Positions 37,994 through 58,238 of a stretch of DNA of 64,000 bases are shown in pieces (positions within the stretch are counted from its first letter, which is position 1; the number at the start of each line of letters is the position of its first letter). A program made the position numbers and the translations under genes. The DNA lies in contig NZ_CP031963.1 of assembly GCF_003443675.1 (NCBI RefSeq), positions 2,193,501 through 2,257,500 on the forward strand. The letters run 5' to 3'. The notes under the pieces were generated by a model. That model saw nothing but the letters and a program-made list of their open reading frames with translations. It searched no databases and was not told the DNA's origin. Source of the DNA: Aquimarina sp. BL5 (lineage in GTDB: Bacteria; Bacteroidota; Bacteroidia; Flavobacteriales; Flavobacteriaceae).

Positions 37994-38036
37994 TGATATT
38001 TATCATATTTAAAAATAAAGAGAGTTCCTATTTTTG
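37994..38036 (+). promoter_or_regulatory. Fnr-type promoter of raiA
   Basis: TGATATTTATCA (37994-38005, perfect dyad) is centred 29.5 bp before the -7 box TATTTTTG (38029-38036), placing the site near -41, a class II activator position. Confidence 0.8.
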
Positions 38037-38060
38037 AGATAGATTTAAAATGCTATAATA

Positions 38061-38363
38061 ATGACAATAAACATTCAATTCGTACAAATGCCAACAAGCG
38101 AATACATGGAAGGTTATGTACAGGAAAAATTAGAGAAATTATATAAAAAGTATGATTGGATTATCAAATCGGATGTATTTTTTAAAAAAGAAAAAGACCC
38201 GAAAGGAAGCGGAAAAATTTGTGATATAGAATTAAGTCTTCCTGGTCCTAAAATATACGCTACCTCTAATGAAAAAAATTATGAGATGGCTGTCAAAGAA
38301 ACTCTTAGTGACCTGGAAAGGCAACTCAAGAAAAGAAAACAAGAAATGAAGCCTTATATGTAA
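38061..38363 (+). CDS. raiA: Ribosome hibernation factor, HPF/RaiA family (short form)
   Basis: This 100-residue sigma-54 modulation/S30EA-type protein (MTINIQFVQMPTSEYMEGYVQEKLEKL...) ends in a basic stretch (LERQLKKRKQEMKPYM) that contacts 16S rRNA. It binds the decoding region of idle 30S subunits and inactivates ribosomes in stationary or stress conditions. There is no long C-terminal dimerisation domain. It is controlled by a perfect Fnr-type site, so ribosome silencing is predicted to be induced with the micro-oxic genes downstream. Confidence 0.92.
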   Translation: MTINIQFVQMPTSEYMEGYVQEKLEKLYKKYDWIIKSDVFFKKEKDPKGSGKICDIELSLPGPKIYATSNEKNYEMAVKETLSDLERQLKKRKQEMKPYM

Positions 38364-38381
38364 GTAAGGATTTCAAAAAAC

Positions 38382-38424
38382 TGATAAATATCATATTTTA
38401 TGATCATCAAACGAACTACTTTTA
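38382..38424 (+). promoter_or_regulatory. Fnr-type promoter reading into a protein-free gap
   Basis: TGATAAATATCA (38382-38393) is centred 29.5 bp before TACTTTTA (38417-38424, 7 of 8 with the -7 consensus). This is the same geometry as at raiA, the usp genes and cco, but no protein gene follows on this strand. Confidence 0.7.
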
Positions 38425-38428
38425 TATG

Positions 38429-38653
38429 GTAGTTAATTACTAATTCTTTAGTATAAGGATTAGTTAAAAAATAAGTTGTTCTTGTTGTAAAACAGTTGCA
38501 ACTGAAACAGAGAAATTGACTATATTTTTTCAGGAAAATAACCTGATTTTCGATATTTAGTAATAAATGGAACATTGAAGGTAATCGTATCGAAAAATAA
38601 AATTAATTTCTTTGTAGGAAACAGGTAGGTTTACGCTTACCTGTTTCTGTTTT
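38429..38653 (+). ncRNA. Candidate Fnr-controlled small RNA, about 225 nt
   Basis: The transcript is predicted from the promoter at 38382-38424 to the terminator at 38618-38653. No ORF longer than a few codons with a start exists in it: the only clear ATG, near 38567, stops after three codons. Structured elements inside are the 12-bp perfect palindrome CAGTTGCAACTG (38493-38504) and the TCAGG / CCTGA hairpin (38530-38546). The gene lies between raiA and a convergent acetyltransferase gene, both of which have their own Fnr-type sites. The design resembles the FNR-activated FnrS sRNA of enterobacteria, but no sequence relation is claimed. The alternative is a raiA 3' processed RNA or antisense control of the acetyltransferase mRNA end. 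Confidence 0.55.
38618..38653 (+). terminator. Strong intrinsic terminator of the candidate sRNA
   Basis: The 10-bp perfect stem GAAACAGGTA / TACCTGTTTC has a 10-nt loop and the tail TGTTTTTA. It is 250 bp beyond raiA, too far to be simply its terminator, and on the plus strand. Confidence 0.8.
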
Positions 38654-38791
38654 TATCAAGAAATTTCAACTAGTTTTCATAAGATTAATTGCGTGTTGTA
38701 TACATCTAATTTAGAAGATAAAGCCCAATAGTAAATAATCCTGGATTTTTGCAAATCAAGTAGACTAGAATTAAATTGTTAGAGCACGTCT

Positions 38792-39538
38792 TTATTCAAT
38801 TAGCTTTTCCAAATGTCTTTCTACTTTCATTTCTAAACTCACTAATTCTCCTTTGTAAAAAACACTATTTATGATCCACGGGATTGGCATTTTTAGTCCA
38901 TCTTCTTGAGATTTAATCTTGATAATTTCTAAAGGAATATTTTTCTTTTTCGCATATTCTCTAAGTGATTCATTCGTGTAAAATTCCGTGAATGGACACG
39001 TATTGGAATAGTATGCTGTGATTCCATTTTTATTCGGACAATTTCCTGACTTTGCGCTTTCCATAAATTTTGGAAACTCAGCATTATAATTAGTTTTTAA
39101 TCCCCAAAGTTTAAAATAAGGTTTTGCCTCGTCAATAATTTCAAATCCTTGGTGTTTAAGAAATTTTGGGTCAGTCATAAAAGGCCTTTTCTTATCGCTA
39201 GAAACTGCAATAATTCCATCCATTTCTTTAGAGTCGGCTAAACATTGTTCCAACAACTTTTTTCCATTACCTTTTCTCTTGAATTGTCCAGAAACCCAAA
39301 AGCAATTTATAACCATAAAATTTTTTCCGATTAATGGAAGCCAAGAACTTTCTATTGGAACATATTCGATAAATACTTTTCCTCTAACATCAACCTTTTG
39401 AAAGTTGTAGCCATTTTTAAATTCTTTCTTCAGCCACTCTTTTTTCTTCTCATATCCATTCTGACATTTTTTGTCACTTATAGCACAACAAATATGCTCG
39501 TCTTGAATATTCTTATCGGTAAGTTTTAGAATTTCCAT
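38792..39538 (-). CDS. GNAT acetyltransferase with YoaP-like C-terminal domain
   Basis: This 248-residue protein has an N-terminal GNAT fold (about 1-150): VINCFWVSGQFKRKGNGKKLLEQCL contains the R/Q-x-x-G-x-G/A acetyl-CoA loop. The C-terminal YoaP-type domain (about 165-248) contains AYYSNTCPFTEFYTNE and the fixed phrase MPIPWIINSVFYKGE. YoaP-like proteins are of unknown acceptor specificity. It is preceded by a perfect Fnr-type promoter and so belongs to the micro-oxic set. Confidence 0.85.
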   Translation of the reverse strand: MEILKLTDKNIQDEHICCAISDKKCQNGYEKKKEWLKKEFKNGYNFQKVDVRGKVFIEYVPIESSWLPLIGKNFMVINCFWVSGQFKRKGNGKKLLEQCLADSKEMDGIIAVSSDKKRPFMTDPKFLKHQGFEIIDEAKPYFKLWGLKTNYNAEFPKFMESAKSGNCPNKNGITAYYSNTCPFTEFYTNESLREYAKKKNIPLEIIKIKSQEDGLKMPIPWIINSVFYKGELVSLEMKVERHLEKLIE

Positions 39539-39552
39539 TTTTTCGGTTTTAT

Positions 39553-39595
39553 CAAAAGTAGAATGGTTGTAATTTCTTTCCTATGATAATCATCA
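39553..39595 (-). promoter_or_regulatory. Fnr-type promoter of the YoaP-like acetyltransferase gene
   Basis: TGATAATCATCA-type dyad (39584-39595) is centred 29.5 bp from the perfect -7 box TACTTTTG (39553-39560, minus). The predicted start is only about 10 bp before the ATG. Confidence 0.78.
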
Positions 39596-39645
39596 ACTTT
39601 TCCGAGTTAGTCCTGGTGTTCCTCAAATGCCCTACCTCCTTTATG

Positions 39646-40527: not shown

Positions 40528-40717
40528 AGCATCTAGTTTACAGCAGAGATAACATCATACTTCTATAACGTATCACTAAAACAACTCTTTTTTATAATGT
40601 ATCAAATAACCTAAAGAGTTTTAAATATTAAAGGTAGAAAAAGTTATTATCTGTTTCGGTAACAAAAGTTACAATCTGCACTATTTAAACAGAACATCTT
40701 GCAACAGTAACTAGAAA

Positions 40718-40990: not shown

Positions 40991-41074
40991 AGTTACAAAG
41001 GTTTATCCATTTATTTTATAGATTGGATTTGTTTACAACAATATCCTACTCAAAATACTAAAAAACAAATTCAA

Positions 41075-41117
41075 TGACAATTATCATATTAATTACTCTG
41101 AACATCTTCTAATTTTG
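41075..41117 (+). promoter_or_regulatory. Fnr-type promoter of the first universal stress gene
   Basis: TGACAATTATCA (41075-41086) is centred 29.5 bp before the perfect -7 box TAATTTTG (41110-41117). Confidence 0.82.
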
Positions 41118-41138
41118 ATTTTGTAAAAACAATTAATC

Positions 41139-41975
41139 ATGAAAAAAATCCTCGTCCCAATTGACTTTTCTGAATACTCAGAATATGCATTACAAGTTGC
41201 CGCTGATATTGCAAGAAAGCAACACGCAGAAATCATTGTATTACATATGCTTGGCTTATCAGAAGCTATTCTTACCAAAGATGAAGCTCAAGAAGCTGCG
41301 GAGGCTATTTATTATTTAAAACTAGCAGAAAAAAGATTTAAGACATTCTTAGATAAAGAATATCTGAAAGGCATTAAAATCACAGAAACTGTACAGAACT
41401 ATAAAGTATTTAGTGAATTAAATGAAGTAGCTAATGAAAATGAAATAGATCTTATTGTGATGGGGTCTCACGGTAGTAGTGGATTAAGTGAGGTGTTTGT
41501 TGGCTCTAATACAGAAAAAGTAGTTCGTACTTCTGATATCCCAGTTTTGGTAATCAAAAATCAGATTGATGAATTCGATTTAAAAGAAGTAGTGTTTGCC
41601 TGTGATTTTAAAATGGAAAATATCCGTGCGTATCATAACGCCAATCGATTATTCACTTTATTTAATGCTACCGTACATATGGTGTATGTAAATCTACCAG
41701 GTGATCGATTTAGGAATTCTAATCAAATTGAAGAGCGAGTAAAAGAATTTCTTTTCAAAGCAGATTCAGGCAATTTAGAAAATTTTGATAAAGTAGTAGT
41801 TCAGAATGATTATTCTGTAGAGAATGGTATTTTTAACTATTGTCAAAAAATAAACGCAGATGTTATTGCAATACCAACTCATGGCAGAAGAGGATTATCA
41901 CACTTTTTTAATGGAAGTATTGGAGAGGATATTGCTAATCACTCTAATAAACCTGTAATTACATTTAAGATCTAA
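41139..41975 (+). CDS. Universal stress protein, two UspA domains
   Basis: This 278-residue protein has tandem Usp domains. The first starts KKILVPIDFSEYSEYALQVA and contains the nucleotide-binding type loop MGSHGSSGLSEVFVGSNTEKVVRTSDIPVLVI. The second is shorter (DLKEVVFACDFKME...IPTHGRRGLSHFFNGSIGEDIANHSNKPVITF). Such double Usp proteins bind ATP and accumulate under energy or oxygen limitation. The Fnr-type promoter supports that here. A terminator follows and no other gene shares the transcript. Confidence 0.93.
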   Translation: MKKILVPIDFSEYSEYALQVAADIARKQHAEIIVLHMLGLSEAILTKDEAQEAAEAIYYLKLAEKRFKTFLDKEYLKGIKITETVQNYKVFSELNEVANENEIDLIVMGSHGSSGLSEVFVGSNTEKVVRTSDIPVLVIKNQIDEFDLKEVVFACDFKMENIRAYHNANRLFTLFNATVHMVYVNLPGDRFRNSNQIEERVKEFLFKADSGNLENFDKVVVQNDYSVENGIFNYCQKINADVIAIPTHGRRGLSHFFNGSIGEDIANHSNKPVITFKI

Positions 41976-42015
41976 GATCTTAGATTATATATATATTAAA
42001 GTTAAGTTTGTATGG

Positions 42016-42056: not shown

Positions 42057-42096
42057 AACGGTCTTACCTTAACAAAACTAGAACTGTCGGTTCATT

Positions 42097-42795: not shown

Positions 42796-42801
42796 CTGAT
42801 T

Positions 42802-44491: not shown

Positions 44492-45379
44492 TTATCCTAT
44501 TAATGGTTGATCATTATATTTTTTAATAAGGTGCATTATCTCTTTAATTGGAATTTCGATAGAATAAGTTCCGGTATATGAAGGGCAAATAATACAATCA
44601 TCAAAATAGAATTCTACAGTATCATCATTAACCACAAAATTGTTTTTATACACCTTAAAATCTTCTTCTGATAACTCCCAACATTCATAATACAATTCTC
44701 CAGAATTTATACTATTGGTTATTGTTTTATTTATAGTTGTAAGTAATTCTTTTTCCGAATTATTGATAAAAAAATCATTGTAATAAATGAATTTATGATT
44801 ATTGAGATCAAAGTTTAGACACTCGAACATATACGTAGAATGCTTCATTCCTGAATAATAGTTTTCTTTATAAAGCAGTACACTGATAAGGTTACTTTTC
44901 ACAGCATATACTTTATAATCAATTATTCTTTTATCCATACATCTCCCGATCCCGAGAGAATCACAGAATATTACTTTATCTTCTAAAATCTCATTTTCTG
45001 TAGCTTCTATATTCAAGTAATTTTCTGCTATGAAATCATTAAACTGAACATTATCAACATCCATTTCTTCATTGAGATAAGGATATTTATAGTTCAAAAT
45101 ATAGAAATCCTCTTCCTTATATAACTTTTTAGCAATTACCAGCTCTTGTAATTTATTCTTGTCATCTTCCGTAGTAATAAGACGTTCTACCTTTATGGAT
45201 TTTGTTTTTTCCTGATTTAGTTCTAGCGTTTCTTCTGAGAAATATTGGGTACTATCTGTATTTTGATCAAGAAGCTGTTCACGCTCTATAACATCTTTTT
45301 TTGGGTTTTCTTTTATTTGAGTTCTAGTATTACACGCCATCAAACTTATGACAGCAACACTAATGATTAGGGTTTTCAT
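44492..45379 (-). CDS. Lipoprotein with DUF3298-type C-terminal domain
   Basis: The signal peptide ends LMAC, so Cys16 is lipidated, followed by a long polar linker. The C-terminal part (about 85-295) has the DUF4163/DUF3298 arrangement seen in RsiV and PdaC: YPYLNEEMDVDNVQFNDFIAENY..., SVLLYKENYYSGMKHSTYMFECLNFDL, and VEFYFDDCIICPSYTGTYSIEIPIKEI. It probably sits in the periplasm or outer membrane. A weak Fnr-type site (TGATATCAATCA, 45432-45443) lies upstream, but the spacing to a -7-like TACCTTTA is 2 bp short. Confidence 0.75.
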   Translation of the reverse strand: MKTLIISVAVISLMACNTRTQIKENPKKDVIEREQLLDQNTDSTQYFSEETLELNQEKTKSIKVERLITTEDDKNKLQELVIAKKLYKEEDFYILNYKYPYLNEEMDVDNVQFNDFIAENYLNIEATENEILEDKVIFCDSLGIGRCMDKRIIDYKVYAVKSNLISVLLYKENYYSGMKHSTYMFECLNFDLNNHKFIYYNDFFINNSEKELLTTINKTITNSINSGELYYECWELSEEDFKVYKNNFVVNDDTVEFYFDDCIICPSYTGTYSIEIPIKEIMHLIKKYNDQPLIG

Positions 45380-45453
45380 ATTATGATTTTTTGCTTTTTA
45401 TAAAGGTAGTTTTGAGGGTACTCAAAAAATATGATATCAATCAGTTAAGAAGT

Positions 45454-45513: not shown

Positions 45514-45798
45514 TTAAAACAAGCCGTTCCCAATAATTATCAAACTATTTACCACTAAACTTGTAATCAGAAGATCTAATACCAATTTAGGTTTCTGAAC
45601 GGTTAATATAGCAGCATTATGCGCACTACATACCGTAACTGTTAGAAAAACCAGAAACATTTGTAAAAAACCATTCCCATCAAACAAAGTAGTCATAATG
45701 GCGATGGAACCTAAACAGGTCGATGCTATGATTGCCAGAGCAGAGTATCCTATATAGTTTTCAGAAAAATCAGCATTCATTTTTGCGTATAGTGTCAT
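45514..45798 (-). CDS. Small membrane protein, 94 aa, in the Fnr-type set
   Basis: Three predicted helices (YSALAIIASTCLGSIAIMTTLF, FLQMFLVFLTVTVCSAHNAAIL, LVLDLLITSLVVNSLIIIG) follow a short polar start. I do not recognise the family. It is preceded by a clear Fnr-type promoter, so it is probably made with the cbb3 oxidase genes. It is monocistronic with its own terminator. Confidence 0.75.
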   Translation of the reverse strand: MTLYAKMNADFSENYIGYSALAIIASTCLGSIAIMTTLFDGNGFLQMFLVFLTVTVCSAHNAAILTVQKPKLVLDLLITSLVVNSLIIIGNGLF

Positions 45799-45822: not shown

Positions 45823-45865
45823 TAAAATTAGAGATGCTACGGTTGTTAAAATATGACAAAAGTCA
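45823..45865 (-). promoter_or_regulatory. Fnr-type promoter of the 94-aa membrane protein gene
   Basis: TGACAAAAGTCA (45854-45865) is centred 29.5 bp from TAATTTTA (45823-45830, minus, 7 of 8 with the -7 consensus). Confidence 0.75.
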
Positions 45866-45891: not shown

Positions 45892-46296
45892 TCATTTATT
45901 AAGAATTATGTGAAGTCTTCCGAGCATCATTAATTCGGACTTATTTTTACCAGAAAAAGCATTGGCAATACTATTAGAAGTATTCCAAATCAATTGTTTA
46001 ATTCTATCCGTAAAAAGTGATTTATGATTATTATAGAAAGAAGAAAACTCATTAAAACTAGCTTCTGCCTCGAGTGCTGAATAATCTAACCAATCAAAAA
46101 CGATTTCGATCTGGAAAGCAGCATCTGCACCAAACTCATCTTCCAGATCATCAACAGCTAGCCATTCTGATTTTACGAGGTTTCTTAAAGATACATATTC
46201 AGATGTTCGTACTACTTTATCAGCTGCTGCTATAGCATAAAATAGTTTGCCTAAATTTTGGTAAAATGTAATCCCTATATTTTCTGTTGTATCCAT
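45892..46296 (-). CDS. Hypothetical TerB-like helical protein, 134 aa
   Basis: This all-helical cytoplasmic protein contains KLFYAIAAADKVVRTSEYVSLRNLVKSEW, whose D-x-V and spacing resemble the TerB/DjlA N-terminal helical domain (about 10-75). A second helical part follows (FNEFSSFYNNHKSLFTDRIKQLIW). The TerB relation is a guess. The gene is divergent from the histidine kinase gene and shares with it one Fnr-type site, so both are probably induced together. Confidence 0.68.
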   Translation of the reverse strand: MDTTENIGITFYQNLGKLFYAIAAADKVVRTSEYVSLRNLVKSEWLAVDDLEDEFGADAAFQIEIVFDWLDYSALEAEASFNEFSSFYNNHKSLFTDRIKQLIWNTSNSIANAFSGKNKSELMMLGRLHIILNK

Positions 46297-46324: not shown

Positions 46325-46399
46325 TAAATTTAATAAGTAGTTCCAACCTTTTTTATGATAAAAATCAGCTACTATAACAGGACAAAATTGTTACTTTTG
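46325..46399. promoter_or_regulatory. Bidirectional Fnr-type promoter of the TerB-like and histidine kinase genes
   Basis: TGATAAAAATCA (46356-46367) lies 30.5 bp from the plus-strand -7 box TACTTTTG (46392-46399) and 29.5 bp from the minus-strand TAAATTTA (46325-46332). The kinase ATG (46404) falls on the expected transcription start. Confidence 0.78.
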
Positions 46400-46403
46400 A
46401 AGA

Positions 46404-47633
46404 ATGAAAGTTTTCGAAAAAAACAACAATATTTTCAGAATACTTTCTGAAGCTATTTCAGAAGGAATAATTGTAGTGAATAAGGATCAAATAATTGTTG
46501 CTACTAATGAATCTGCAAATAACATCTTTGGGTATGAAAAAAATGAATTAGTTGGCAAAGAGTTGACTATTTTAATTCCAAAAAAACATCACAACACACA
46601 CGGTGGATATGTAGATAAATTTATAGCAGATAGTGGAAAAAGGAAAATGGGACTAGGACGTGATCTTTTTGGTGTGCGAAAAAATGGCAACAAATTTCCG
46701 GTTGAAGTGGGATTAAACCCTTTTGAAATTTATGATAACTCTTATGTAATGGCTTTAATAAGCGATATTACATTGCGTAAAGAACAGGAAGTAAAAATTC
46801 AAGAATTAAATACTGAACTAGAGCAAAAAATAAAAAAACGAACGCAAGAACTTTACACTACAATAAAGGAACTAGAAGAAGAGATAAAGCTTCGTGAAAA
46901 AGCAGAAGCGGTTACAAAAGAAGCCTTAAAAAAAGAACAGCAACTAAATGAACTAAAAACCAAGTTTCTCTCTCTGGTATCTCACGAGTTTAAGACACCC
47001 TTAAGTGGAATTCTTACCTCAACAACATTGATCGGAAAATACACTAAGGAAGAGCAGCAAGAAAAGAGAGATAAACATCTTGCTACTATAAAAAATAAAG
47101 TAAAATATCTTGATAACATTCTTAATGATTTCTTGTCTGTAGAACGTCTGGAAAGTGGCAAGGTAAAATATAAGTTCGCTACCTTTCCTTTGAGTAAAGT
47201 AATTAATGAAGTGATATATGATGCAAATATGTTGCTTAAAGATGGACAAAGAATAAAATATCCTCAGGATATTGATGAGCACATCATTGATTTTGATGAG
47301 AAAATATTAGAATTGGTATTAACCAATCTAATCCGAAATGCGATAAAATATTCTGGAGAGAATACTGAGATTGACCTTCAGGTAGTTTTTGAGAATGACC
47401 TTCTTACATTTCATATCATTGATCAAGGAATTGGTATTCCGGAAAAAGAACAACAATTCATCTTTAATCGATATTTTAGAGCAGAAAACGCTTTATTAGA
47501 TCAAGGTACTGGAATCGGGTTGAATATCGTAAAAAGTCATTTGGAAAATCTGGGCGGTAATATTACTTTTACAAGTAAAGAAAACCAAGGCTCGACCTTT
47601 ACAGTACAAATACCTGTAGCAAAACAATCTTAA
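46404..47633 (+). CDS. PAS sensor histidine kinase of the micro-oxic island
   Basis: This 409-residue cytoplasmic kinase has an N-terminal PAS domain (about 10-125) of the FixL-like kind (PKKHHNTHGGYVDKF...KMGLGRDLFGVRKNGNKFPVEVGLNPF), a coiled-coil linker (about 128-185), HisKA with phospho-acceptor His194 (LVSHEFKTPLSG) and HATPase_c with N box (TNLIRNAIKYSGE), G1 (DQGIGIP), F (NRYFRA) and G2 (GTGIGLNIV). At the position of the FixL haem His there seems to be a basic residue, so haem binding is doubtful. There are no membrane helices. The response regulator follows after 3 bp. An Fnr-type site before it suggests positive feedback. Confidence 0.93.
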   Translation: MKVFEKNNNIFRILSEAISEGIIVVNKDQIIVATNESANNIFGYEKNELVGKELTILIPKKHHNTHGGYVDKFIADSGKRKMGLGRDLFGVRKNGNKFPVEVGLNPFEIYDNSYVMALISDITLRKEQEVKIQELNTELEQKIKKRTQELYTTIKELEEEIKLREKAEAVTKEALKKEQQLNELKTKFLSLVSHEFKTPLSGILTSTTLIGKYTKEEQQEKRDKHLATIKNKVKYLDNILNDFLSVERLESGKVKYKFATFPLSKVINEVIYDANMLLKDGQRIKYPQDIDEHIIDFDEKILELVLTNLIRNAIKYSGENTEIDLQVVFENDLLTFHIIDQGIGIPEKEQQFIFNRYFRAENALLDQGTGIGLNIVKSHLENLGGNITFTSKENQGSTFTVQIPVAKQS

Positions 47634-48706: not shown

Positions 48707-48749
48707 TGATTTTTGTCATACTTTTCATAAATACATCCTAATACATTTG
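48707..48749 (+). promoter_or_regulatory. Fnr-type promoter of usp-hemN
   Basis: TGATTTTTGTCA (48707-48718) is centred 29.5 bp before the perfect -7 box TACATTTG (48742-48749). Confidence 0.82.
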
Positions 48750-49631: not shown

Positions 49632-50996
49632 ATGAATTCTAATTTAGTAGATAAATATAACGTTCCAGGACCTAGATACACGAGTTACCCTACAGTTCCA
49701 TATTGGGATAATAGTACATTTTCGTTAAGAAATTGGACACAATCAGTTCAGAAATCTTTTATTCAAAGTAATGACTCAGAAGGAATCAGCTTATATATTC
49801 ACTTACCTTTTTGTGAAAGCATGTGTACTTTTTGTGGATGTAATAAGCGAATTACTAAAATACATCATGTAGAAATACCATATATCAATGCTCTGCTAAA
49901 AGAATGGCAATTATATCTTAATTTATTCGAAACCAGACCAAAAATCAAGGAATTGCATTTAGGTGGTGGAACACCTACATTTTTTTCTCCAGAAAATTTA
50001 GCATTCTTGATTAAAGGGTTATTCTGGTCCGCAAAATCGGCTTCAGCCTGTGAATTTAGTTTTGAAGGACATCCAAATAACACCACTCGAGAACACCTAC
50101 AAGCGTTATATGATGTAGGTTTCAGAAGAGTGAGTTTTGGTGTACAAGATTATAATGAAACTGTTCAGAAAGCAATTCATAGAGTACAACCATTCGAGAA
50201 TGTAAAACATGTTACAGAGATTGCCAGAGAAATCGGTTATACTTCTATTGGTCACGACATTATATTCGGATTACCTTTTCAGACCGAAGAAGCAGTTATT
50301 CACACCATACAGAAAACTAAAGAACTATTACCTGATCGCTTAGCATTTTATAGCTATGCACATGTTCCTTGGCAAAAAGGAAACGGTCAACGTGGATTTA
50401 ATGAGTCTGATCTTCCAACAGGGGAACAAAAACGAAAACAGTATGAAATAGGTAAAGAACTATTATCCAAAGTTGGTTATGTAGAAATTGGGATGGATCA
50501 TTTTGCACTGAAAAGTGACTCGTTATATAAATCAATGAAAAATAAAAGTTTACATCGTAATTTTATGGGATATACGGTTTCTAAAACTAATATGATGATC
50601 GGTTTAGGTGTGTCTTCTATTAGTGATAGTTGGTATGGTTTTGCCCAAAATGTTAAGGGTATAGAAGAATATCAAAATTTAGTTAATGAAGGCATCATTC
50701 CCGTATACAGAGGTCATATACTAACTAAAGAAGATGAAATCATCAGGCAACATATCTTAAATCTTATGTGTCATTTTAAGACCGATTGGAGTATAAACCC
50801 TCTTCATTTTGATGAATTAGCAGATGTATCTGCACGCTTAAGAGAAATGGAAAATGATGGTTTAGTAGAAATTACCAACCACTATATTAAAGTGACTGAA
50901 AAAGGACGACCCTTTGTTCGTAATATCTGTATGGCTTTTGACTTACGACTGCAAAAAAACAAACCCAATACGCAATTATTTTCTATGACGGTTTAG
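49632..50996 (+). CDS. hemN: Oxygen-independent coproporphyrinogen III oxidase
   Basis: This 454-residue radical-SAM enzyme makes protoporphyrinogen IX when O2 is scarce. The 4Fe-4S motif reads CESMCTFCGCNKR (CxxxCxxC plus the family-specific fourth Cys). LHLGGGTPTFFSPENL and SFGVQDYNETVQKAIHRVQPFE are the next HemN signatures. The start SNLVDKYNVPGPRYTSYPTVPYW carries the N-terminal trip-wire typical of true HemN, not HemW. It is placed behind a Usp gene with Fnr-type control, which fits haem supply for the cbb3 oxidase. Confidence 0.97.
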   Translation: MNSNLVDKYNVPGPRYTSYPTVPYWDNSTFSLRNWTQSVQKSFIQSNDSEGISLYIHLPFCESMCTFCGCNKRITKIHHVEIPYINALLKEWQLYLNLFETRPKIKELHLGGGTPTFFSPENLAFLIKGLFWSAKSASACEFSFEGHPNNTTREHLQALYDVGFRRVSFGVQDYNETVQKAIHRVQPFENVKHVTEIAREIGYTSIGHDIIFGLPFQTEEAVIHTIQKTKELLPDRLAFYSYAHVPWQKGNGQRGFNESDLPTGEQKRKQYEIGKELLSKVGYVEIGMDHFALKSDSLYKSMKNKSLHRNFMGYTVSKTNMMIGLGVSSISDSWYGFAQNVKGIEEYQNLVNEGIIPVYRGHILTKEDEIIRQHILNLMCHFKTDWSINPLHFDELADVSARLREMENDGLVEITNHYIKVTEKGRPFVRNICMAFDLRLQKNKPNTQLFSMTV

Positions 50997-51147
50997 AAAA
51001 CAAAAAGATTTCAGGTTTTATATATTACATTTAGTAATGATGAGATCATTATCTATGACTTTGATCATACCCGCTAGAGGACAACAAACATCTTTTTATC
51101 GTAAATTTTACTGATCATTAATCTATGATTTACTAATTTTTTAAAAA

Positions 51148-51190
51148 TGATTTAGGTCATACCTTATGATCTATTTAGATGGTAAATTGT
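51148..51190 (+). promoter_or_regulatory. Fnr-type promoter of the DUF6799 gene
   Basis: TGATTTAGGTCA (51148-51159) is centred 29.5 bp before TAAATTGT (51183-51190, 6 of 8 with the -7 consensus). Another site TGACTTTGATCA (51056-51067) lies further up without a fitting -7 box. Confidence 0.65.
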
Positions 51191-51212: not shown

Positions 51213-51821
51213 ATGAGAAAACTAATATTATTTTTTGGATTGTTAATCCTAGGAACGGTAATTCTTAACGCTCAAAATCAAGATCCTGAAAAAACCATGC
51301 TTATGTATGTAGATGGTGACATGCTACAAGTAATTGATGGAGATATCACACCTCTTCAAGAAAGTATTATTTTACAGGATTGTAGAGTACTTAACTCAGA
51401 CGGCAGTTTTAAGGCGATGGATGGGTATCAATCTCGTTTAAAAGAAGGAGAATGTATGGATATGTACGGTATTGAATATCGTAATGAGTATCAATATCGA
51501 TATAAAACAAAGAAAGAGAATAAAGGTCTTACACAAACACAACTAACTAGTAAATATCAAAACAAACTTCATTACATAAAAATATCTGGTAAAGTATATC
51601 AGGTAACTAATATATCTCAGAAACCGTTACGCGATAATTTTGATCTTGCTAACGGAGTTATAGTAGATCCATATGGTATATATAAGGAATCTGGTAAAGA
51701 ACAAATTCGATTAATAGATGGTGATTGTATTAACCTAAGTGGAGTTAAATTTGAGAATAGTTATGATCAAAGAAAAATCCTGGTAAAGAAAATCAAAAAG
51801 ACAAACAATGAAGTTCAATAA
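51213..51821 (+). CDS. Exported DUF6799-type protein, 202 aa
   Basis: A Sec signal peptide (ending LNAQ, about residue 21) is followed by two copies of a DUF6799-like unit. In each, a DGD/DGC phrase precedes a hydrophobic strand (MLMYVDGDMLQVIDGDITPLQESIILQDCRVLNSDGSF and HYIKISGKVYQVTNISQKPLRDNFDLANGVIVDPYG). It probably sits in the periplasm. The function is unknown, but copper or oxidase-related roles would fit the location between hemN and the cco operon. It is monocistronic with a terminator at 51848. Confidence 0.72.
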   Translation: MRKLILFFGLLILGTVILNAQNQDPEKTMLMYVDGDMLQVIDGDITPLQESIILQDCRVLNSDGSFKAMDGYQSRLKEGECMDMYGIEYRNEYQYRYKTKKENKGLTQTQLTSKYQNKLHYIKISGKVYQVTNISQKPLRDNFDLANGVIVDPYGIYKESGKEQIRLIDGDCINLSGVKFENSYDQRKILVKKIKKTNNEVQ

Positions 51822-51874: not shown

Positions 51875-52579
51875 TTAGTGACATTCGAAATTTGCAGAAA
51901 CAATTTCAGTTGATTGTTTTGGAGAAACATATGGAATTCCTAATCCCATTCCTCTTAAGATAAATAACAATCCCATCATAACTACAAACACCGGAATTGC
52001 TTTTTGAATATGTTTTCTTATCCACTTTCCTTTGAACAAATTTCTTGCGTAAACAACTGCTGTCATAAGGGGAACTGTTCCTAATCCAAAAAGTAATACA
52101 TACATACTACTTTCCATAATACTACCTAGAGCAATTGCTGCAAAAACTGCCATATATATCAATCCACAGGGAAGAAAACCATTCAGAAAACCAATAGTCA
52201 AAAATGTATCTGGTGTTTTCTTTTTAAGTTCTTTCCCTAAAGCATTCTTGACGTTTGAGATTACTTTATATACGGGTTTAGAGAAATTGTATTTCATGAA
52301 TATTGATGATGGAATCAAAACCAATAAAATCATTAAAACACCTATACTTATAGATAGTCCCTGCTGCATTCCAAAAATGTTCAGGCTCTTGCCTACTAGT
52401 CCAAAAAACAATCCAATAATACTATACGCTAGTAAACGACCCAAATGATATAAAGAGATCTGAAAAAATTTCTTAAGATGATTCTTATGATCCAAAGGCA
52501 GCATAAAAGCAATAGGGCCACACATTCCAATGCAGTGAAAACTTCCCAAAAGGCCTAATATGAATGCTGATAATAACAT
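51875..52579 (-). CDS. Sulfite exporter TauE/SafE-family protein (CcoH-SafE type) of the cbb3 locus
   Basis: This 234-residue protein with six predicted helices has the motif GLLGSFHCIGMCGPIAFMLPL in the first helix, typical of the DsbD-like/SafE proteins that accompany cbb3 operons. A second similar glycine-rich helix begins IGFLNGFLPCGLIYMAV. Cys pairs in these helices could carry electrons or bind copper. It ends the cco operon, 0 bp after fixH. A role in copper delivery to the oxidase is inferred from context. Confidence 0.88.
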   Translation of the reverse strand: MLLSAFILGLLGSFHCIGMCGPIAFMLPLDHKNHLKKFFQISLYHLGRLLAYSIIGLFFGLVGKSLNIFGMQQGLSISIGVLMILLVLIPSSIFMKYNFSKPVYKVISNVKNALGKELKKKTPDTFLTIGFLNGFLPCGLIYMAVFAAIALGSIMESSMYVLLFGLGTVPLMTAVVYARNLFKGKWIRKHIQKAIPVFVVMMGLLFILRGMGLGIPYVSPKQSTEIVSANFECH

Positions 52580-53026
52580 TTAATACGTGAATGATTCTTT
52601 AAATAAGTAAGAAGTATTCTCATAGCTCCAATTTACAGTAATATTCCATCTCCCCTCTATCAACTTATTTTGCGGCACTAATATTTCCGAACTCTGAAGC
52701 GTGATTGGAATTTCGAAATCCAATTTTTTATTTGATGGTCGATACAAAGAAATACTACCTGATAGTTTTGTATAGTTCTTGTCTTTGGGAAACACCACTA
52801 GTAATCCTTCTGCTATCTTTTTAACTTCTACATTATTATGCAATGCGTTTCCCTTTTGTTCAGCATTAATTTCGTTCTGAAAAGCCAGTTCTTGTTTGTA
52901 GTAATCTTCCGTTACCAAATCGTGTTCGTACTTTTTATCTGTATTCATTCGTACTACGAAGTATAGTATAAAACTTATAAATCCTATAAATACCAGTACA
53001 ATAGCGGTACCCCAGTTTACTTTCAT
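52580..53026 (-). CDS. ccoH: FixH/CcoH-family protein
   Basis: This 148-residue protein has one N-terminal helix (WGTAIVLVFIGFISFILYFVVRM) and a periplasmic beta domain. NTDKKYEHDLVTEDYYKQELAFQNEINAE is the FixH hallmark. It is thought to help assemble the cbb3 oxidase. Its stop abuts the SafE start, and 174 bp separate it from ccoG. That gap contains a double hairpin repeat (53083-53119). Confidence 0.9.
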   Translation of the reverse strand: MKVNWGTAIVLVFIGFISFILYFVVRMNTDKKYEHDLVTEDYYKQELAFQNEINAEQKGNALHNNVEVKKIAEGLLVVFPKDKNYTKLSGSISLYRPSNKKLDFEIPITLQSSEILVPQNKLIEGRWNITVNWSYENTSYLFKESFTY

Positions 53027-53082
53027 CTTTTTTACATTTTGATTTTTTTATTAACTCATAACTCAACTTCATCAACCCTCTC

Positions 53083-53119
53083 TGTCCGACTTAGCGGACA
53101 TCTCTCCCAAAGGGAGAGA
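53083..53119. repeat. Double hairpin repeat inside the cco operon
   Basis: Two adjacent perfect inverted repeats are present: TGTCCG / CGGACA (53083-53100) and TCTCTCCC / GGGAGAGA (53101-53119, 3-nt loop). The short GC-rich pair stands out from the AT-rich surroundings and resembles a dispersed intergenic repeat that I have seen in this phylum but cannot verify. Confidence 0.55.
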
Positions 53120-53200
53120 AGCTGAAATTGTTCTCTGATTCTAAATTTCAACTTTAGTTTTACAACCATCAACTAACAACAGGTAACTATAAACTAACAA

Positions 53201-54625
53201 TCATCTATAGCTTCTTGGTCCAAGAAAAGCTGTTGTTGTCGTTTCTACCAGTTCGTCATTAGAATATACTCCTATTTTTATTTTGTCCCTATCTCCACTT
53301 AGGGCAGATGTATTGATTTCTATAAATAATGTCCCTTCTGCCAATCCCTGTTTAGGTACCGTAAAGTTTTTATGAGTTACTAATTCAATAGTTCCTTTAT
53401 GAGATAATAATTCAAAACGAACATTTTCTATCTCATCTATGGTTTTATTAACCAGTTTATAGGTATACACATTACTGATGATATTATTATCTTTTCTCTC
53501 ATAGAGCTGACCTGGTAATCTTAAGATATTGGCTTCTACATCGTTTCTTAAAAAAGACATTCCTAAAAAAACACCTGTCAATATAACCAGTACTGCTGTA
53601 TATCCTTTTAGGCGTGGTGTAAACTTAAATTTCTCCTTTTTTGCTATATTATCTTCACTTGCATAGCGAATCAATCCTTTAGGTAGGTTTACACTCTCCA
53701 TCATATGATCACAGGCATCGATACAGGCTGTGCAATTCACACACTCCAATTGTGTACCATTACGAATATCAATTCCTGTTGGGCAGACATGAACACATTG
53801 GAAACAGTCTATACAATCTCCTTTTCCTGTAGTAGATCTATCTTCATTTTTCTTAAACTTAGCACGCCCAGCTTCTTTTTCTCCACGCTTATAATCATAG
53901 GCAACTACAATAGATTTAGCATCTAATAACACACCTTGTAATCGACCATATGGACAAGCAATAATACAAACCTGTTCTCTAAACCAGGCAAATACAAAAT
54001 AAAATACTGCTGTAAATATGAGTAATGAGATTAATGTACTCACGTGCTTAAAAGGGCCATCGACAAAAACATATTGAATAAGTTTATCACTCCCGATCAG
54101 ATAGGCTAAAAACACATTAGCAATCAAGAAAGAGATAATAAAAAAAACAAACCATTTCAGCACACGTTTTTTAATTTTATCAGCATTCCAAGGTTGTTTA
54201 TCCAGCCGTATTTGTTTTCCTCGGTCTCCTTCTATCCAGTATTCTATTCTTCGGAAAACCATTTCCATAAATATTGTTTGCGGACATATCCAACCACAGA
54301 ATAATCGTCCAAAAGCTACCGTAAATAATATTACAAAGACTACCCCAATAATCATTGATATTACAAACAGATGAAAATCCTGAGGCCAGAAAGGAGCTCC
54401 GAAAATGTTGAAACGTCGCTCTAAAACATTAAATAACAAAAACTGGTTGCCGCTAATTTTGATAAATGGCGCAGAAAACAAAAAGATCAATAACCCATAA
54501 CTTACCCATTTTCGATATTTATAAAATTTACCGCTAGGTTTTTTAGGATATACCCAAGCACGTTTTCCTTCTTCGTTAATCGTACCGATAGAATCTCTAA
54601 ATGTTTCGTTTTCTGGTGTTTCCAA
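53201..54625 (-). CDS. ccoG: Cytochrome oxidase accessory protein CcoG
   Basis: This 474-residue membrane ferredoxin-type protein has five helices. The 4Fe-4S sites are CIDCFQCVHVCPTGIDI and CVNCTACIDACDHMM, with further Cys in FCGWICPQTIF and CIIACPYGRLQ. The C-terminal Ig-like domain (about 370-474, FRNDVEANILRLPGQLYERK) matches CcoG (RdxA/FixG). CcoG is believed to reduce Cu(II) for insertion into CcoN. It starts 21 bp after ccoP. Confidence 0.95.
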   Translation of the reverse strand: METPENETFRDSIGTINEEGKRAWVYPKKPSGKFYKYRKWVSYGLLIFLFSAPFIKISGNQFLLFNVLERRFNIFGAPFWPQDFHLFVISMIIGVVFVILFTVAFGRLFCGWICPQTIFMEMVFRRIEYWIEGDRGKQIRLDKQPWNADKIKKRVLKWFVFFIISFLIANVFLAYLIGSDKLIQYVFVDGPFKHVSTLISLLIFTAVFYFVFAWFREQVCIIACPYGRLQGVLLDAKSIVVAYDYKRGEKEAGRAKFKKNEDRSTTGKGDCIDCFQCVHVCPTGIDIRNGTQLECVNCTACIDACDHMMESVNLPKGLIRYASEDNIAKKEKFKFTPRLKGYTAVLVILTGVFLGMSFLRNDVEANILRLPGQLYERKDNNIISNVYTYKLVNKTIDEIENVRFELLSHKGTIELVTHKNFTVPKQGLAEGTLFIEINTSALSGDRDKIKIGVYSNDELVETTTTAFLGPRSYR

Positions 54626-54646
54626 GTGGGAATTATTTTTAATACA

Positions 54647-55588
54647 TTACTCGTTAATTACTACGGTAGTAGAATCAACAATCTTTTCAGGGATCTCTTC
54701 ATTTGGAGCTCCTGGATCAATCCAAATTTCACCTTGTGCTTCTTTGGGATCTACCGGAGTGGTTCCTCCCAACGTAATTACGTAACTCGCTACTTGAGCC
54801 ATTTCTGCCGGCTTCAAAGTTTGTTTCCAAGCTACCATTCCTTTTCCGTCTCGACCTCCTTCAGAAATGGTTTGGAATACATTTTTGATTCCACCACCCA
54901 AAATCCAATTCGGATCTGTTAGATTAGGGCCTATACCTCCTCCTCCATCTGCCTTATGACAAGCCACACAATTAGTGGTAAAAATCGCTTTACCAGCACT
55001 GATATCTGAAGCTTCTGTTAGTAATACTACTGTGTTTACATCTACTAAATCTTTAGCCGTTTTCTTATACGCCTCTATTGCTACTAATGCTTCAGCTACT
55101 TCTGTTTCGTATTCTTCTGTCTGCGTATAATCATTAAATACGTGAAAACGTGCTAAATAAATCACTCCAAACAAAATGGTTGCATAAAAACCATATACCC
55201 ACCAAGGCGGAAGGTTGTTATCAAGCTCTTTAATACCGTCATAATTATGGTCCAAAATAATCTCGCCTTCCTCTTCTACAGGTTTACTATCCAATAATTT
55301 TAGATAGATATCCTTAATCCATCGGAATTGCTTTTCTTTTTTAGCATTTCGAACTACTAAATAGCGTTCCTGAGCTTCGGATTTTAGTGATTTAAATAAT
55401 ACACTTCGCAATGCTTCTACACAAATCTCAATAGCTATTGCAAATAATAAAATTATTCCCATTACCACCCAAGTAAGCGGTTCCGCAATAAATGCAGATT
55501 CTTCTCCTGATGCTACTGCCCATTCTATTAAAAGATATGCTATAAATAGAAAGATAATAACTCTTATATAAGATACTGTACTTCTCAT
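54647..55588 (-). CDS. ccoP: cbb3 oxidase subunit CcoP, single-haem form
   Basis: This 313-residue subunit has two N-terminal helices (IIFLFIAYLLIEWAV, WVVMGIILLFAIAIEI), then the cbb3 N-terminal region with NNLPPWWVYGFYATILFGVIYLARFHVF, then one cytochrome c domain (NCVACHKADG near residue 210, Met ligand in GMVAWKQ). Proteobacterial CcoP has two haem c sites, and here only one CxxCH is present. It transfers electrons toward CcoNO. It overlaps ccoQ by 4 bp. Confidence 0.93.
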   Translation of the reverse strand: MRSTVSYIRVIIFLFIAYLLIEWAVASGEESAFIAEPLTWVVMGIILLFAIAIEICVEALRSVLFKSLKSEAQERYLVVRNAKKEKQFRWIKDIYLKLLDSKPVEEEGEIILDHNYDGIKELDNNLPPWWVYGFYATILFGVIYLARFHVFNDYTQTEEYETEVAEALVAIEAYKKTAKDLVDVNTVVLLTEASDISAGKAIFTTNCVACHKADGGGGIGPNLTDPNWILGGGIKNVFQTISEGGRDGKGMVAWKQTLKPAEMAQVASYVITLGGTTPVDPKEAQGEIWIDPGAPNEEIPEKIVDSTTVVINE

Positions 55589-55776
55589 AGTATTAGCTCG
55601 TTTTCGTTTTCTGATTCAAATGGAATCTCACTCACTTCTTTAATATGTTCTTTCTTTGCTGAAATTACCCACCAGAATAAGGCAGTAAAAAAGATGAAAA
55701 ATATAAGTAGGGATATGATAGGATATATCTCTACACCTTCGATACTTTCCATATGTCCTTTTATAAATTTAAACAT
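55585..55776 (-). CDS. ccoQ: CcoQ-type small oxidase subunit
   Basis: This 63-residue single-helix protein (YPIISLLIFFIFFTALFWWVI) has a charged cytoplasmic tail (SAKKEHIKEVSEIPFESENENELIL). Size, membrane topology and place between ccoNO and ccoP identify it as CcoQ/FixQ, a subunit that stabilises the cbb3 complex. It overlaps ccoP by 4 bp, a sign of coupled translation. Confidence 0.88.
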   Translation of the reverse strand: MFKFIKGHMESIEGVEIYPIISLLIFFIFFTALFWWVISAKKEHIKEVSEIPFESENENELIL

Positions 55777-55787
55777 GATTTATTTCT

Positions 55788-57980
55788 TTAGTTTGAATTT
55801 GCAGTTTCGTTTTTAACTTTGATGTCAGTTCCTAATCGCTGTATATAAGCGATCAAGGCAATTACTTCTCTATCTCTCATCTCTATAAAATTCAATCCGT
55901 TTTCCTTCGCATACTTTTTATCAGCTTCATAGGTTTTCGCAAAATCTGGATCATCATACAGGTTTTTCTCAACCTGAGTAGCCTGTTCATCCATCCATTT
56001 CTGAGCTCTTGCTATTTCTTCAGGAGTATACGGAACTCCAAGAGTAACCATGACTTCCATCTTAGCTTCTGTATCGGATCGATCCAATTCATTTTTAAGC
56101 AACCACTTGTAGCTCGGCATAATAGATCCCGATGAAGTACTCTGCGGATCATAAAAGTGATTCAAGTGCCAATTATCAGAGTATTTCCCTCCAATTCGCA
56201 TTAAATCTGGACCAGTACGTTTACTTCCCCAAAGGAAAGGATGGTCGTATACATATTCACCAGCTTTAGAATATTCTCCATATCGCTCTACCTCACTACG
56301 GAAAGGTCTGATCATCTGGGAGTGGCAAGACACGCAACTTTCTCTTATATAGAGATCCCTACCTTCTAACTCTAAGGGTGTGTAGGGTTTTACACTGGTG
56401 ATTGTGGGTATATTAGAATCCACCATCAGTGTAGGAACAATCTGCACAGCTCCACCAATAAGAATTGCGATGGTAGCAAAAATGGTCAACTTCACAGGTC
56501 TTCTTTCTAACCAAGTATGATATCCTTCCTTTGCAGTTCTATGTTTAGTCACTTTGGTTAATGGAGCTGCCTCTGCTAATTCATCCGTTACTTTTGCCCC
56601 AGCTCTAATGGTTTTAATCACATTATAAACCATGATAAACATCCCGAAGATGAACATACTACCACCAATAGCACGCATCCAATACATTGGAATGATTTCG
56701 TTTACAGTTTCTAAGAAATTACCATACACTAAACTTCCATCAGGATTGAATTGTTTCCACATAGATGCTTGTACAAATCCTGCTACATACATAGGCAATG
56801 CATACATAATGATACCTAAGGTACCTATCCAGAAATGTACATTTGCTAATCCTGTAGACCATAATTTGGTTTTAAACAATTTAGGAATTAACCAATACGC
56901 CATCCCAAAGGTGAAGAAACCATTCCAGGCTAAAGCACCGACGTGTACGTGAGCAATAACCCAATCACTAAAATGTGCAATCGCGTTTACATTTTTTAAG
57001 GAAAGCATGGGTCCTTCGAACGTAGCCATACCATATCCCGTAATCGCCACCACCATAAATTTAAGTACAGGATCCGTACGTACTTTATCCCAAGCGCCGC
57101 GCAACGTTAATAATCCGTTGATCATACCACCCCAAGAAGGTGCAATTAACATAATAGAGAAAGCTACTCCCAGGTTTTGCGCCCAATCTGGTAATGAAGA
57201 ATATAATAAATGGTGCGGTCCTGCCCAGATGTAGATAAATATCAAAGACCAAAAATGAACAATAGATAATCGATAAGAATATACGGGTCTATTTGCTGCT
57301 TTTGGAACAAAATAATACATCAATCCTAAAAACGGAGTAGTCAAGAAAAATGCTACTGCATTATGTCCGTACCACCATTGTACTAAAGCATCCTGAACAC
57401 CTGCGTATACCGAATAACTTTTTAGCGCGCTAACCGGTAAAGCTAAACTATTAAAAATATGCAGTACAGCGACTGTTACTACAGTAGCCAAGTAAAACCA
57501 AATTGCTACATACAGGTGACGTTGTCTACGTTTTAGAATTGTACCGATCAAGTTCCAACCAAAAACTACCCAAATAACAGCGATAGCAATATCAAAAGGC
57601 CATTCTAGCTCAGCATATTCTTTAGAACTTGTGTATCCTAAGGGTAATGTAATTGCTGCTCCTACTATGATTAATTGCCAACACCAAAAATTAATATTAC
57701 TAAGCGTATCATTAAACATTCGTGTTTTTAGCAATCGCTGGGTAGAATAATACACTCCAGCAAATATGGCATTCCCGACAAAAGCAAAAATTACCGCATT
57801 GGTATGCAAAGGCCGCAAGCGCCCGAAACTCAACCACGAAATACCATCGGTAAGATTAGGAAATAAAAACATAAATGCCAGCAGTAATCCAACTGACATC
57901 CCTACAATTCCCCAAAGAAGTGTGGCGTACAAGAATTTTTTTACGATTTTGTTATCGTAATAGAATTGTTCCATTTTCAT
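55788..57980 (-). CDS. ccoN: Fused cbb3 oxidase subunits I and II (CcoN-CcoO)
   Basis: This protein of about 730 residues has CcoN (about 1-460) with haem/CuB ligands in [35 protein letters not shown] and [16 protein letters not shown] transmembrane link leads to CcoO with haem c motif CVSCHSQ (about 550) and [12 protein letters not shown]. The O2-reducing, proton-pumping core thus sits in one chain, as is usual in Bacteroidetes. The start MKMEQFYY at 57980 (or the ATG two codons later) is chosen, because an ORF opening 38 codons earlier would run inside ccoS. Confidence 0.96.
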
Positions 57981-57981
57981 A

Positions 57982-58176
57982 TTATACTTGATTGTTTTTA
58001 GTGGATACTGAAGTTTTTTCTTTGGATTCTTTGACCAATTCATCATCAAAAAGTATTCTGATAGATGGCGTATAGGTATCATCATATTGCCCATTCTTTA
58101 CGGAAAGAATAAAAGCAACAAAAAAAACAATGGCTACAACAATACTAATAGTCAGTAAAACATAAATAACACCCAT
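57982..58176 (-). CDS. ccoS: cbb3 oxidase maturation protein CcoS
   Basis: This 64-residue protein starts [33 protein letters not shown], with one helix and the family phrase [17 protein letters not shown]. CcoS is needed for cofactor insertion in the oxidase. It is the first gene of ccoS-NO-Q-P-G-H-safE and begins about 20 bp after a perfect Fnr-type promoter. The P-type ATPase gene ccoI, often found before ccoS, is not in the window. Confidence 0.93.
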
Positions 58177-58195
58177 AAAGCATTTAATTATGCCC

Positions 58196-58238
58196 CAAAA
58201 GTATGCGTGAACATTTTCTCAAAAAATGACATTTATCA
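58196..58238 (-). promoter_or_regulatory. Fnr-type promoter of the cco operon
   Basis: TGACATTTATCA (58227-58238) is centred 29.5 bp from the perfect -7 box TACTTTTG (58196-58203, minus), the same geometry as at raiA and the usp genes. Confidence 0.83.

Follow-up and report, generated by a model that had tools for sequence, protein, structure and literature searches.

Why should genes as unlike as those for a ribosome hibernation factor, universal stress proteins (Usp), hemN and a cbb3 oxidase operon all be preceded by one kind of Fnr-like site at one distance from the promoter, and which protein would read it? The question is raised by a stretch of the Aquimarina sp. BL5 genome (bases 2193501-2257500 of the contig; hereafter the window, 64,000 nucleotides in full), in which an earlier sequence-only reading had proposed a micro-oxic island with ten such promoters. 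We think it probable, from sequence comparison, that a low-oxygen regulon has its core in this stretch and is controlled by one two-component system, composed of a receiver-CRP fusion protein (REC-CRP) and the FixL-like histidine kinase encoded beside it. That one regulon is shared by these genes, as first proposed, is supported by comparative tests, namely the fixed gap in relatives and the co-occurrence of regulator and promoters.

A promoter code with a fixed gap

The site TGAYN4RTCA occurs 14 times in the window, a count that none of 100 shuffles reaches (mean 5.2, maximum 10). All nine sites of the earlier reading are present where it had placed them, and its spacing was recovered on re-measurement: the distance from site centre to -7 box is 29.5 bp at 37994, 38382, 39584, 41075, 45432(-), 45854, 46356(-), 48707 and 58227, and 30.5 bp at 46356(+), a single site that has a box on either side and serves two divergent promoters as had been supposed. 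Ten promoters in the window are strict (37994, 38382, 39584, 41075, 45432, 45854, 46356 in both directions, 48707 and 58227), so that the original count of ten stands with one change of membership: the listed candidate at 51148 is weak, with only 4 of the 6 specified box letters, and 45432 on the minus strand had been overlooked. The listed promoters that are strict match 5-6 of 6 specified letters, the former tally of 6-8 of 8 having included the two n positions. At 51056 the box likewise has only 4 of 6 letters, and the sites at 16847, 43582 (within a thioredoxin gene) and 62885 were rejected as promoters, their best box at a gap of 23 or 24 bp matching 4 of 6. Given the window's own box density, the binomial probability that 10 of 28 site orientations would have a box at either gap is ~3e-17.

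The whole-genome scan that the sequence-only reading had suggested gives the same picture. We searched the single 6,011,237-bp contig for a two-block pattern, TGAYN4RTCA and TAnnTTTR separated by 23-24 bp (a gap of 23 or 24 bp from site to box being 29.5 or 30.5 bp from site centre to box), with the reversed pattern as control, and found 20 matches (17 at gap 23) against 1, which agrees with the earlier view that chance is unlikely to explain the constant spacing. Because gaps of 9-38 bp together give only 82 matches against 54 reversed, the other 28 gap lengths averaging 2.2 each, the signal in this genome is confined to gaps 23 and 24. Fifteen of the 20 matches lie within 53 kb (genome coordinates 2231494-2284567), and the island, once put at 20 kb, extends ~27 kb past the window end. 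Of its five matches there, four precede Usp genes, one of them heading a run with phospholipase-D-like and patatin genes, and one precedes an Hsp20 gene; nine Usp genes are found in the island, seven past the window end and two within, and ccoI lies nearby. Outside the island one match precedes a CBS-domain gene, and four (185584, 1277719, 4921122 and 5425497) have no assigned known low-oxygen gene.

The same gap recurs in relatives. In 1.6 Mb of sequence around REC-CRP genes from 80 named relatives there are 434 matches at gap 23, 23 at gap 24 and 0-14 at each other gap from 5 to 45, with 0 and 1 in the reversed control at gaps 23 and 24. Only 11 of these 457 matches fall inside open reading frames (ORFs) that have at least 150 codons or match a reference protein and 446 fall outside, which is not the equal frequency in coding and intergenic DNA that the sequence-only reading had named as telling against it; by gene assignment, 52 stand before an unnamed gene and 42 have no gene in reach. 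Across 249 Flavobacteriaceae genomes, an evenly drawn sample, the pattern matches 3502 times against 126 reversed.

The consensus of the 174 gap-23 promoters left from 434 after dropping similar ones reads AA(C/A)TGAY-AWWT-RTCAT-WKTTT, then ~17 unconstrained bases, then TAnnTTTR. The T after RTCA, a position left free by the search pattern, is present in 98%, and the dyad is asymmetric, the base before TGAY being C (57%) or A (31%). Information is near zero from ~7 bases past the site up to the box, and no separate -33 element is evident in this consensus. The boxes fit the Bacteroidota housekeeping consensus TAnnTTTG, described for flavobacterial sigma-A promoters as a -7 box starting at -12 in the relevant passages of PMC9723704. 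Because the box spans -12 to -5 in that numbering, which we adopt here (our consensus output itself numbers the box from -14), the site centre falls at -41.5. The earlier assignment to the class II activator position thus gains comparative support, with transcription predicted to start where the box would place it. For practical purposes, the two-block pattern is a promoter rule that can be scanned for.

The probable regulator and its kinase

The product of the gene at 47637, proposed earlier as the regulator of an Fnr-like site, keeps that role as the likely one, with comparative support, in another guise: a receiver-CRP fusion stands in place of an Fnr, and a FixL-like kinase is its partner. 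The fusion protein matches PF00072, PF00027 and PF13545, the last two over their cut-offs, which places it in the CRP/FNR superfamily; the Fnr subfamily model NF008365 gives 68.5 bits against a cut-off of 228, and the best 25 of 107 NCBIfam matches are all under their cut-offs. The place of the N-terminal cysteine cluster of Fnr is taken by the receiver, and 72 of 80 REC-CRP relatives have just 1-2 cysteines in total. Receiver residues E9, D10, D53 and K105 are present in 81 of 81 sequences, position 83 is T in one sequence and S in the other 80, and the recognition-helix E-S-L-I-R, together with G-I-A, is invariant in all 81. Seventeen REC-CRP proteins form one group in a tree (support 94/90), whose branching relative to the FNR type the tree does not settle.

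The seven best PDB matches of the kinase's PAS domain are all FixL structures, followed by DosP. The equivalent of FixL His200, which we take to be the proximal haem ligand, is kept in 78 of 78 aligned kinases (that of the window and those of 77 of the 80 loci), and the equivalent of Arg220, presumably the distal residue, in 74. Because the FixL equivalog NF041777 scores 108 bits against a cut-off of 850, we call the kinase FixL-like and not FixL. It adjoins REC-CRP in 79 of 80 loci, in two of which (L075, L093) it overlaps the regulator ORF. We regard it as a candidate haem oxygen sensor, in which haem and oxygen binding and oxygen-dependent autophosphorylation are suggested by these conserved features.

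These parts may be assembled as follows. The kinase (46404-47633) would bind oxygen on its PAS haem; when oxygen drops and the haem empties, it would phosphorylate Asp53 of the adjoining REC-CRP, and dimers of the latter would bind TGAYN4RTCAT centred at -41.5 through their CRP half. REC-CRP would then serve as a class II activator and bring RNA polymerase to TAnnTTTG promoters, in which a separate -33 element is missing. The genes switched on would be those for ribosome hibernation, numerous Usp, anaerobic haem synthesis, the cbb3 oxidase and Hsp20, together with a structured small RNA and the two genes of the kinase and regulator. The same promoter code would be read in many relatives by an iron-sulphur (Fe-S) FNR type.

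Who reads the code

REC-CRP is present in 113 of the 249 family genomes, 105 with type 1 and 8 in which a less similar second type alone is found; the boundary between types (~E 1e-100) and the threshold for the FNR type (E 1e-40) were set post hoc at gaps in the match lists. Genomes with REC-CRP only (n=46) have a median of 15 promoters and a minimum of 6, those with both REC-CRP and the FNR type (n=59) a median of 25, and those whose REC-CRP is of the second type alone (n=8, FNR present or absent) a median of 18. The median is 9 in genomes with the FNR type only (n=89, 76 of which have at least 5) and 0 in those with neither regulator (n=47), and the reversed control averages 0.4-0.6 per genome. 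The other sampled genome of the window's own genus (G177) has neither regulator and no promoter match.

The FNR-type proteins have an N-terminal CxxC and a cysteine aligned to what we take to be Cys122 of E. coli Fnr, from which a bound Fe-S cluster may be inferred. Of 8 promoter-rich genomes without REC-CRP, 7 have such a protein with CxxC and a near-identical recognition helix, the exception being G048 (82% complete). One FNR-only genome groups hemN, two Usp genes, Hsp20, ccoNOP-GH and ccoI with its FNR gene (L136): strict boxes stand before hemN-usp, a usp and ccoNO, ccoI has none, and a fourth box between usp and an Hsp20 pair is directed away from that pair. A second (L137, L138) has one box per stretch, and only its FNR-ccoI neighbourhood is recognisable. 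A strict either-or of FNR and REC-CRP was rejected, since 59 of the 249 genomes have both.

In a wider sample, drawn from the class, REC-CRP was called at E 1e-50 in 141 of 295 genomes. With 9 own-family genomes omitted, the promoter median is 4 with REC-CRP (n=137) and 2 without (n=149), and within-family permutation reached this in 0 of 20000 trials. Within one genus (g256), six REC-CRP genomes have 10-37 promoters and three without it have 2-3. Kinship is controlled in these presence-absence statistics by within-family permutation and two within-genus contrasts only. The distribution suggests one promoter code with two kinds of reader, REC-CRP and the FNR type.

A structured RNA probably under the same control

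One correction to the earlier reading concerns 38382, which precedes a structured RNA and no protein gene of its own. Downstream lie ~370 bp without a protein gene, in which there is no ORF of 80 codons and, on the same strand up to 38791, no ATG ORF of 20. The predicted RNA folds at -61.9 kcal/mol (z -7.2), and two relatives' versions have z of -5.3 and -5.4. Among four sequences, 15 of 57 pairs are double-changed and kept, against a shuffled mean of 6.0 (0 of 500 reach 15) and 0-4 in slid versions; 34 of 41 predicted pairs have double changes in 31 copies, a count from a plain MAFFT alignment with no control on it. That alignment holds 31 of 44 matches, with the window copy replacing L148 and antisense, partial and weak ones excluded.

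A covariance model from the four sequences, run at E 0.01, has hits in 26 of 249 genomes; one search in this series took in 73 of the 81 intended sources, L100-L107 being omitted. The copies are often contiguous tandem units of ~184 nt each. Upstream of the most 5' copy TGAYN4RTCA is present in 24 of 24 loci, 82-98 nt away in 16 and 258-280 nt (about one unit further) in 8, with a TAnnTT box at exactly gap 23 in 23 of them and the TAnnTTRG form in 16; 20 of these 24 loci came from the RNA model alone, with no promoter feature used. At E 1e-5, a presence cut chosen after viewing the data, the refined model finds the RNA in 38 genomes: 37 of the 113 with REC-CRP and 1 of the 136 without, and 0 of the 89 FNR-only genomes (Fisher P 1e-13, ancestry ignored). 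At E 1e-3 there are 44, of which 40 have REC-CRP, 2 FNR only and 2 neither, the six added being three, two and one respectively. In 76 of the 113 REC-CRP genomes no copy was found at E 1e-5. Measured from one hand-picked copy in each of 37 of the 38 genomes (G138 has no REC-CRP), the RNA lies within 3 kb of the REC-CRP gene in 24 and within 50 kb in 34.

A known Rfam family was rejected as its identity, there being no match at gathering scores in window positions 37600-58900 or in 13 relatives' loci; the RNA is previously unlisted and absent from Rfam. FnrS of enterobacteria is a small RNA induced at low oxygen, and raiA RNA of Firmicutes is a structured RNA near a ribosome-hibernation gene. 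The new RNA resembles the one in its predicted low-oxygen induction and the other in its neighbour, and by analogy with FnrS it is expected to be a riboregulator of aerobic functions. The Rfp RNAs of Flavobacterium psychrophilum, as presented in passages of PMC9723704, are flavobacterial small RNAs with their own starts, and the new RNA likewise has a predicted start of its own, a likeness of arrangement. Unlike FnrS, raiA and Rfp, it often forms tandem units of ~184 nt and lies mostly near a REC-CRP gene. In one Aquimarina genome there are two diverged tandem copies (L031:2267-2650), and in the window one.

Weighing the alternatives

An ordinary Fe-S FNR might read the sites, the two-component pair merely sharing their neighbourhood. 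Relatives with the same code do have CxxC FNR-type proteins with the cysteine aligned to Cys122. In the BL5 genome, however, there are eight HTH_Crp_2 matches: REC-CRP itself, six further CRP-family proteins, none of which has an N-terminal CxxC, and a sub-cut-off frame of 110 amino acids, again without CxxC. Fnr was rejected as this genome's regulator on that account. The FNR-type query finds nothing better here than 2.6e-29, and each of the 46 genomes in which REC-CRP occurs without the FNR type has at least 6 promoters. For this genome we therefore regard the explanation as largely refuted and improbable. We give still less credence, very little indeed, to the idea that the fixed spacing reflects a core promoter variant belonging to a single sigma factor and no regulator site at all: the gap hardly varies and borders on the footprint expected of RNA polymerase, but the TGAY/RTCA dyad is of CRP/FNR type, promoter count tracks the presence of such regulators over the 249 genomes, and the own-genus genome without either has no match. 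A more serious alternative, unlikely in our view, accepts the regulator and replaces the signal, with redox, nitric oxide or another PAS ligand in place of oxygen, or with the unphosphorylated form as activator. PAS domains bind varied ligands, and the kinases at four REC-CRP loci of one other genus do not match the window PAS; against this, the best PDB matches of the PAS are FixL and then DosP, the haem histidine is kept in all aligned kinases, and the target genes make up the classical microoxic set.

Several observations weigh against our own reading of a low-oxygen two-component regulon. FixL Arg206 and His214 are not conserved in the aligned kinases, one locus of the 80 (L076) has no kinase beside REC-CRP, and the four kinases of genus g239 (L144-L147) match the window kinase only from residue 157 on, so that their input may not be oxygen. 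The FNR type does not guarantee the code: the promoter count stays under 5 in 13 of 89 FNR-only genomes, and the FNR type occurs in 2 (G020, G026) of 8 promoter-poor genomes tested. Because 6 of the 47 genomes with neither regulator have at least 5 matches (G048 29, G238 17, G147 16, G138 10, G051 5, G205 5), there may be a third reader, or homologs may have been missed. Shared ancestry accounts for part of the association between regulator and code, and genomes with neither are often small. Across the class sample a count of at least 5 promoters is reached by only 63 of 137 genomes with REC-CRP and by 34 of 149 without it, and the REC-negative mean is the higher in 6 of 25 mixed families.

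Two side observations touch these exceptions. The g239 kinases, matched in their catalytic part only, raise the possibility that the REC-CRP output module serves other sensors. Four genomes (G138, G048, G147, G238) have 10-29 promoters without either regulator, possibly through a third reader or missed homologs; G138, 99% complete and with neither regulator found, nevertheless carries the RNA.

Taking the low-oxygen regulon as our preferred reading, we lean, with less confidence than for the regulon itself, towards an exchange of sensors while the promoter code stayed frozen. REC-CRP (in 113 of 249 genomes, its main type driven by the FixL-like kinase) would act on the same TGAYN4RTCAT promoters, centred at -41.5, for which Fe-S FNR would be the sole reader in 89 others, and would bring its own, often tandem, low-oxygen-induced RNA family, missing from FNR-only genomes. 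If so, this is a natural experiment in which a regulon changes its sensor yet keeps its DNA code.

Relation to known systems

Fnr regulons use a TGAY/RTCA dyad at -41.5 in class II layout, and E. coli Fnr has the helix E-x-x-S-R. The promoters described here have the same dyad, position and layout, while REC-CRP differs from Fe-S Fnr in having a receiver, no N-terminal cysteine cluster and the helix E-x-x-I-R. A parallel to the whole circuit is FixL-FixJ-FixK2 of Bradyrhizobium, whose microoxic set, in the part of PMC6515984 that treats it, includes cbb3 (fixNOQP), hemN, FixGI, Usp and CBS proteins. Both systems have a FixL-type kinase, a CRP/FNR-type final activator and a microoxic set; rhizobial FixLJ, as portrayed there, induces a separate fixK2, whereas here the receiver and CRP half are one polypeptide. 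Because the two are fused, there would be one transcriptional step fewer than in Bradyrhizobium. In Rhizobium leguminosarum, hFixL-FxkR-FixK and FnrN both feed the fixNOQP response (PMC7888657, in part), so that there too a FixL-type sensor and an Fnr-type protein serve one response. There both act in one cell, with a separate FixK, unlike our family sample, where REC-CRP and the FNR type are apart in 46 and 89 genomes and together in 59. By analogy, REC-CRP compresses the rhizobial FixJ and FixK into one protein.

The dormancy regulator DosR/DevR of mycobacteria has haem sensors, a target set with Hsp20 and a CBS protein, and a NarL-type output domain where REC-CRP has a CRP half; it belongs to another phylum. 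Two-component hypoxia control of many Usp is common to it and to our system, with six Usp proteins under DosR/DevR of M. tuberculosis (passages of PMC2914252), and is known also from OsdR of Streptomyces (abstract of PMC5069765). NmpRSTU of Myxococcus xanthus couples a haem sensor to two-component control of Usp, CBS, cbb3 with a Cu ATPase, and hemN, and differs, to judge from the sections of PMC11841059 concerned, in its protoglobin sensor and NtrC-like activator. The battery of hibernation factor, Usp, Hsp20, haem synthesis and cbb3 oxidase would thus parallel the FixK2, DosR, OsdR and NmpR sets, like genes under unrelated regulators, and the likeness to the DosR dormancy battery is of interest in itself.

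Oxygen control in Bacteroidota is little described in the literature we searched, and a candidate regulator, a promoter rule and an RNA are now offered. In the open-access literature searched, with most subscription papers outside it, we found no description of a receiver-CRP protein in an oxygen-regulating role or of this RNA. In the F. psychrophilum transcriptome, cbb3 and haem genes rise under oxygen limitation, and neither FNR nor Crp appears as a word in the main text of that paper (PMC9723704). The MalR-like carbon regulators predicted in a metagenome-assembled genome of Flavobacteriales, in the portion of PMC8510549 concerned, are not this system.

Features of the island

Positions within the window are collected in Table 1. 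Among the 457 promoters of the 80 loci, 56 stand before a relative of the divergently encoded 134-aa protein and 20 before one of the 94-aa protein.

Table 1. Genes, promoters and RNA of the island within the window (aa, amino acids; O2-box promoter, strict site plus -7 box)
Feature	Position	Strand	Basis
O2-box promoter of hpf	37994..38036	+	site 37994-38005, -7 box 38029-38036 TATTTTTG
hpf, ribosome hibernation-promoting factor	38061..38363	+	PF02482; TIGR00741 over cut-off
O2-box promoter of small RNA	38382..38424	+	site 38382-38393, box 38417-38424 TACTTTTA
Structured small RNA, ~225 nt	38429..38655	+	start predicted from box, end from terminator-like hairpin
Protein with C-terminal YoaP-like domain	38792..39538	-	PF14268
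O2-box promoter, YoaP-like-domain gene side	39553..39595	-	site 39584-39595, box 39560-39553 TACTTTTG
O2-box promoter	41075..41117	+	site 41075-41086, box 41110-41117 TAATTTTG
Universal stress protein, two Usp stretches	41139..41975	+	PF00582
DUF3298 lipoprotein-like protein	44492..45379	-	PF11738
O2-box promoter before DUF3298 lipoprotein-like gene	45401..45443	-	site 45432-45443, box 45408-45401 TACCTTTA
94-aa membrane-like protein (by eye)	45514..45798	-	no Pfam/NCBIfam match
O2-box promoter	45823..45865	-	site 45854-45865, box 45830-45823 TAATTTTA
134-aa protein, divergent from kinase	45892..46296	-	no family match
Single site, two divergent promoters	46325..46399	.	site 46356-46367, boxes 46332-46325 (-), 46392-46399 (+)
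FixL-like PAS histidine kinase, candidate haem O2 sensor	46404..47633	+	Pfam; FixL best PDB matches; conserved His200, Arg220 equivalents
Response regulator REC-CRP: receiver, cyclic nucleotide (cNMP)-binding fold, HTH_Crp_2	47637..48695	+	PF00072, PF00027, PF13545
O2-box promoter	48707..48749	+	site 48707-48718, box 48742-48749 TACATTTG
Universal stress protein	48771..49610	+	PF00582
hemN, oxygen-independent coproporphyrinogen III oxidase	49632..50996	+	TIGR00538 over cut-off
Weak candidate promoter	51148..51190	+	site 51148-51159, box TAAATTGT, 4 of 6
DUF6799 protein	51213..51821	+	PF20606
ccoP, ccoG, fixH/ccoH, DsbD_2-type protein	51875..55588	-	Pfam
ccoNO fusion, cbb3 oxidase catalytic subunits	55788..58094	-	NF011053 over cut-off; Pfam; mechanical ORF
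ccoS, first gene of cbb3 operon	57982..58176	-	TIGR00847 over cut-off
O2-box promoter of cbb3 operon	58196..58238	-	site 58227-58238, box 58203-58196 TACTTTTG

Because the first part of the ccoNO ORF overlaps ccoS, the true start of ccoNO is probably inside that ORF. A frameshift in ccoS, suspected by eye, was rejected, the gene having proved intact. Near the right end of the island are two more CRP-family regulators, both on the minus strand (L022:5791-6423 and L022:2248-2892), the former of which closes the Usp-led run under the site at 2284525.

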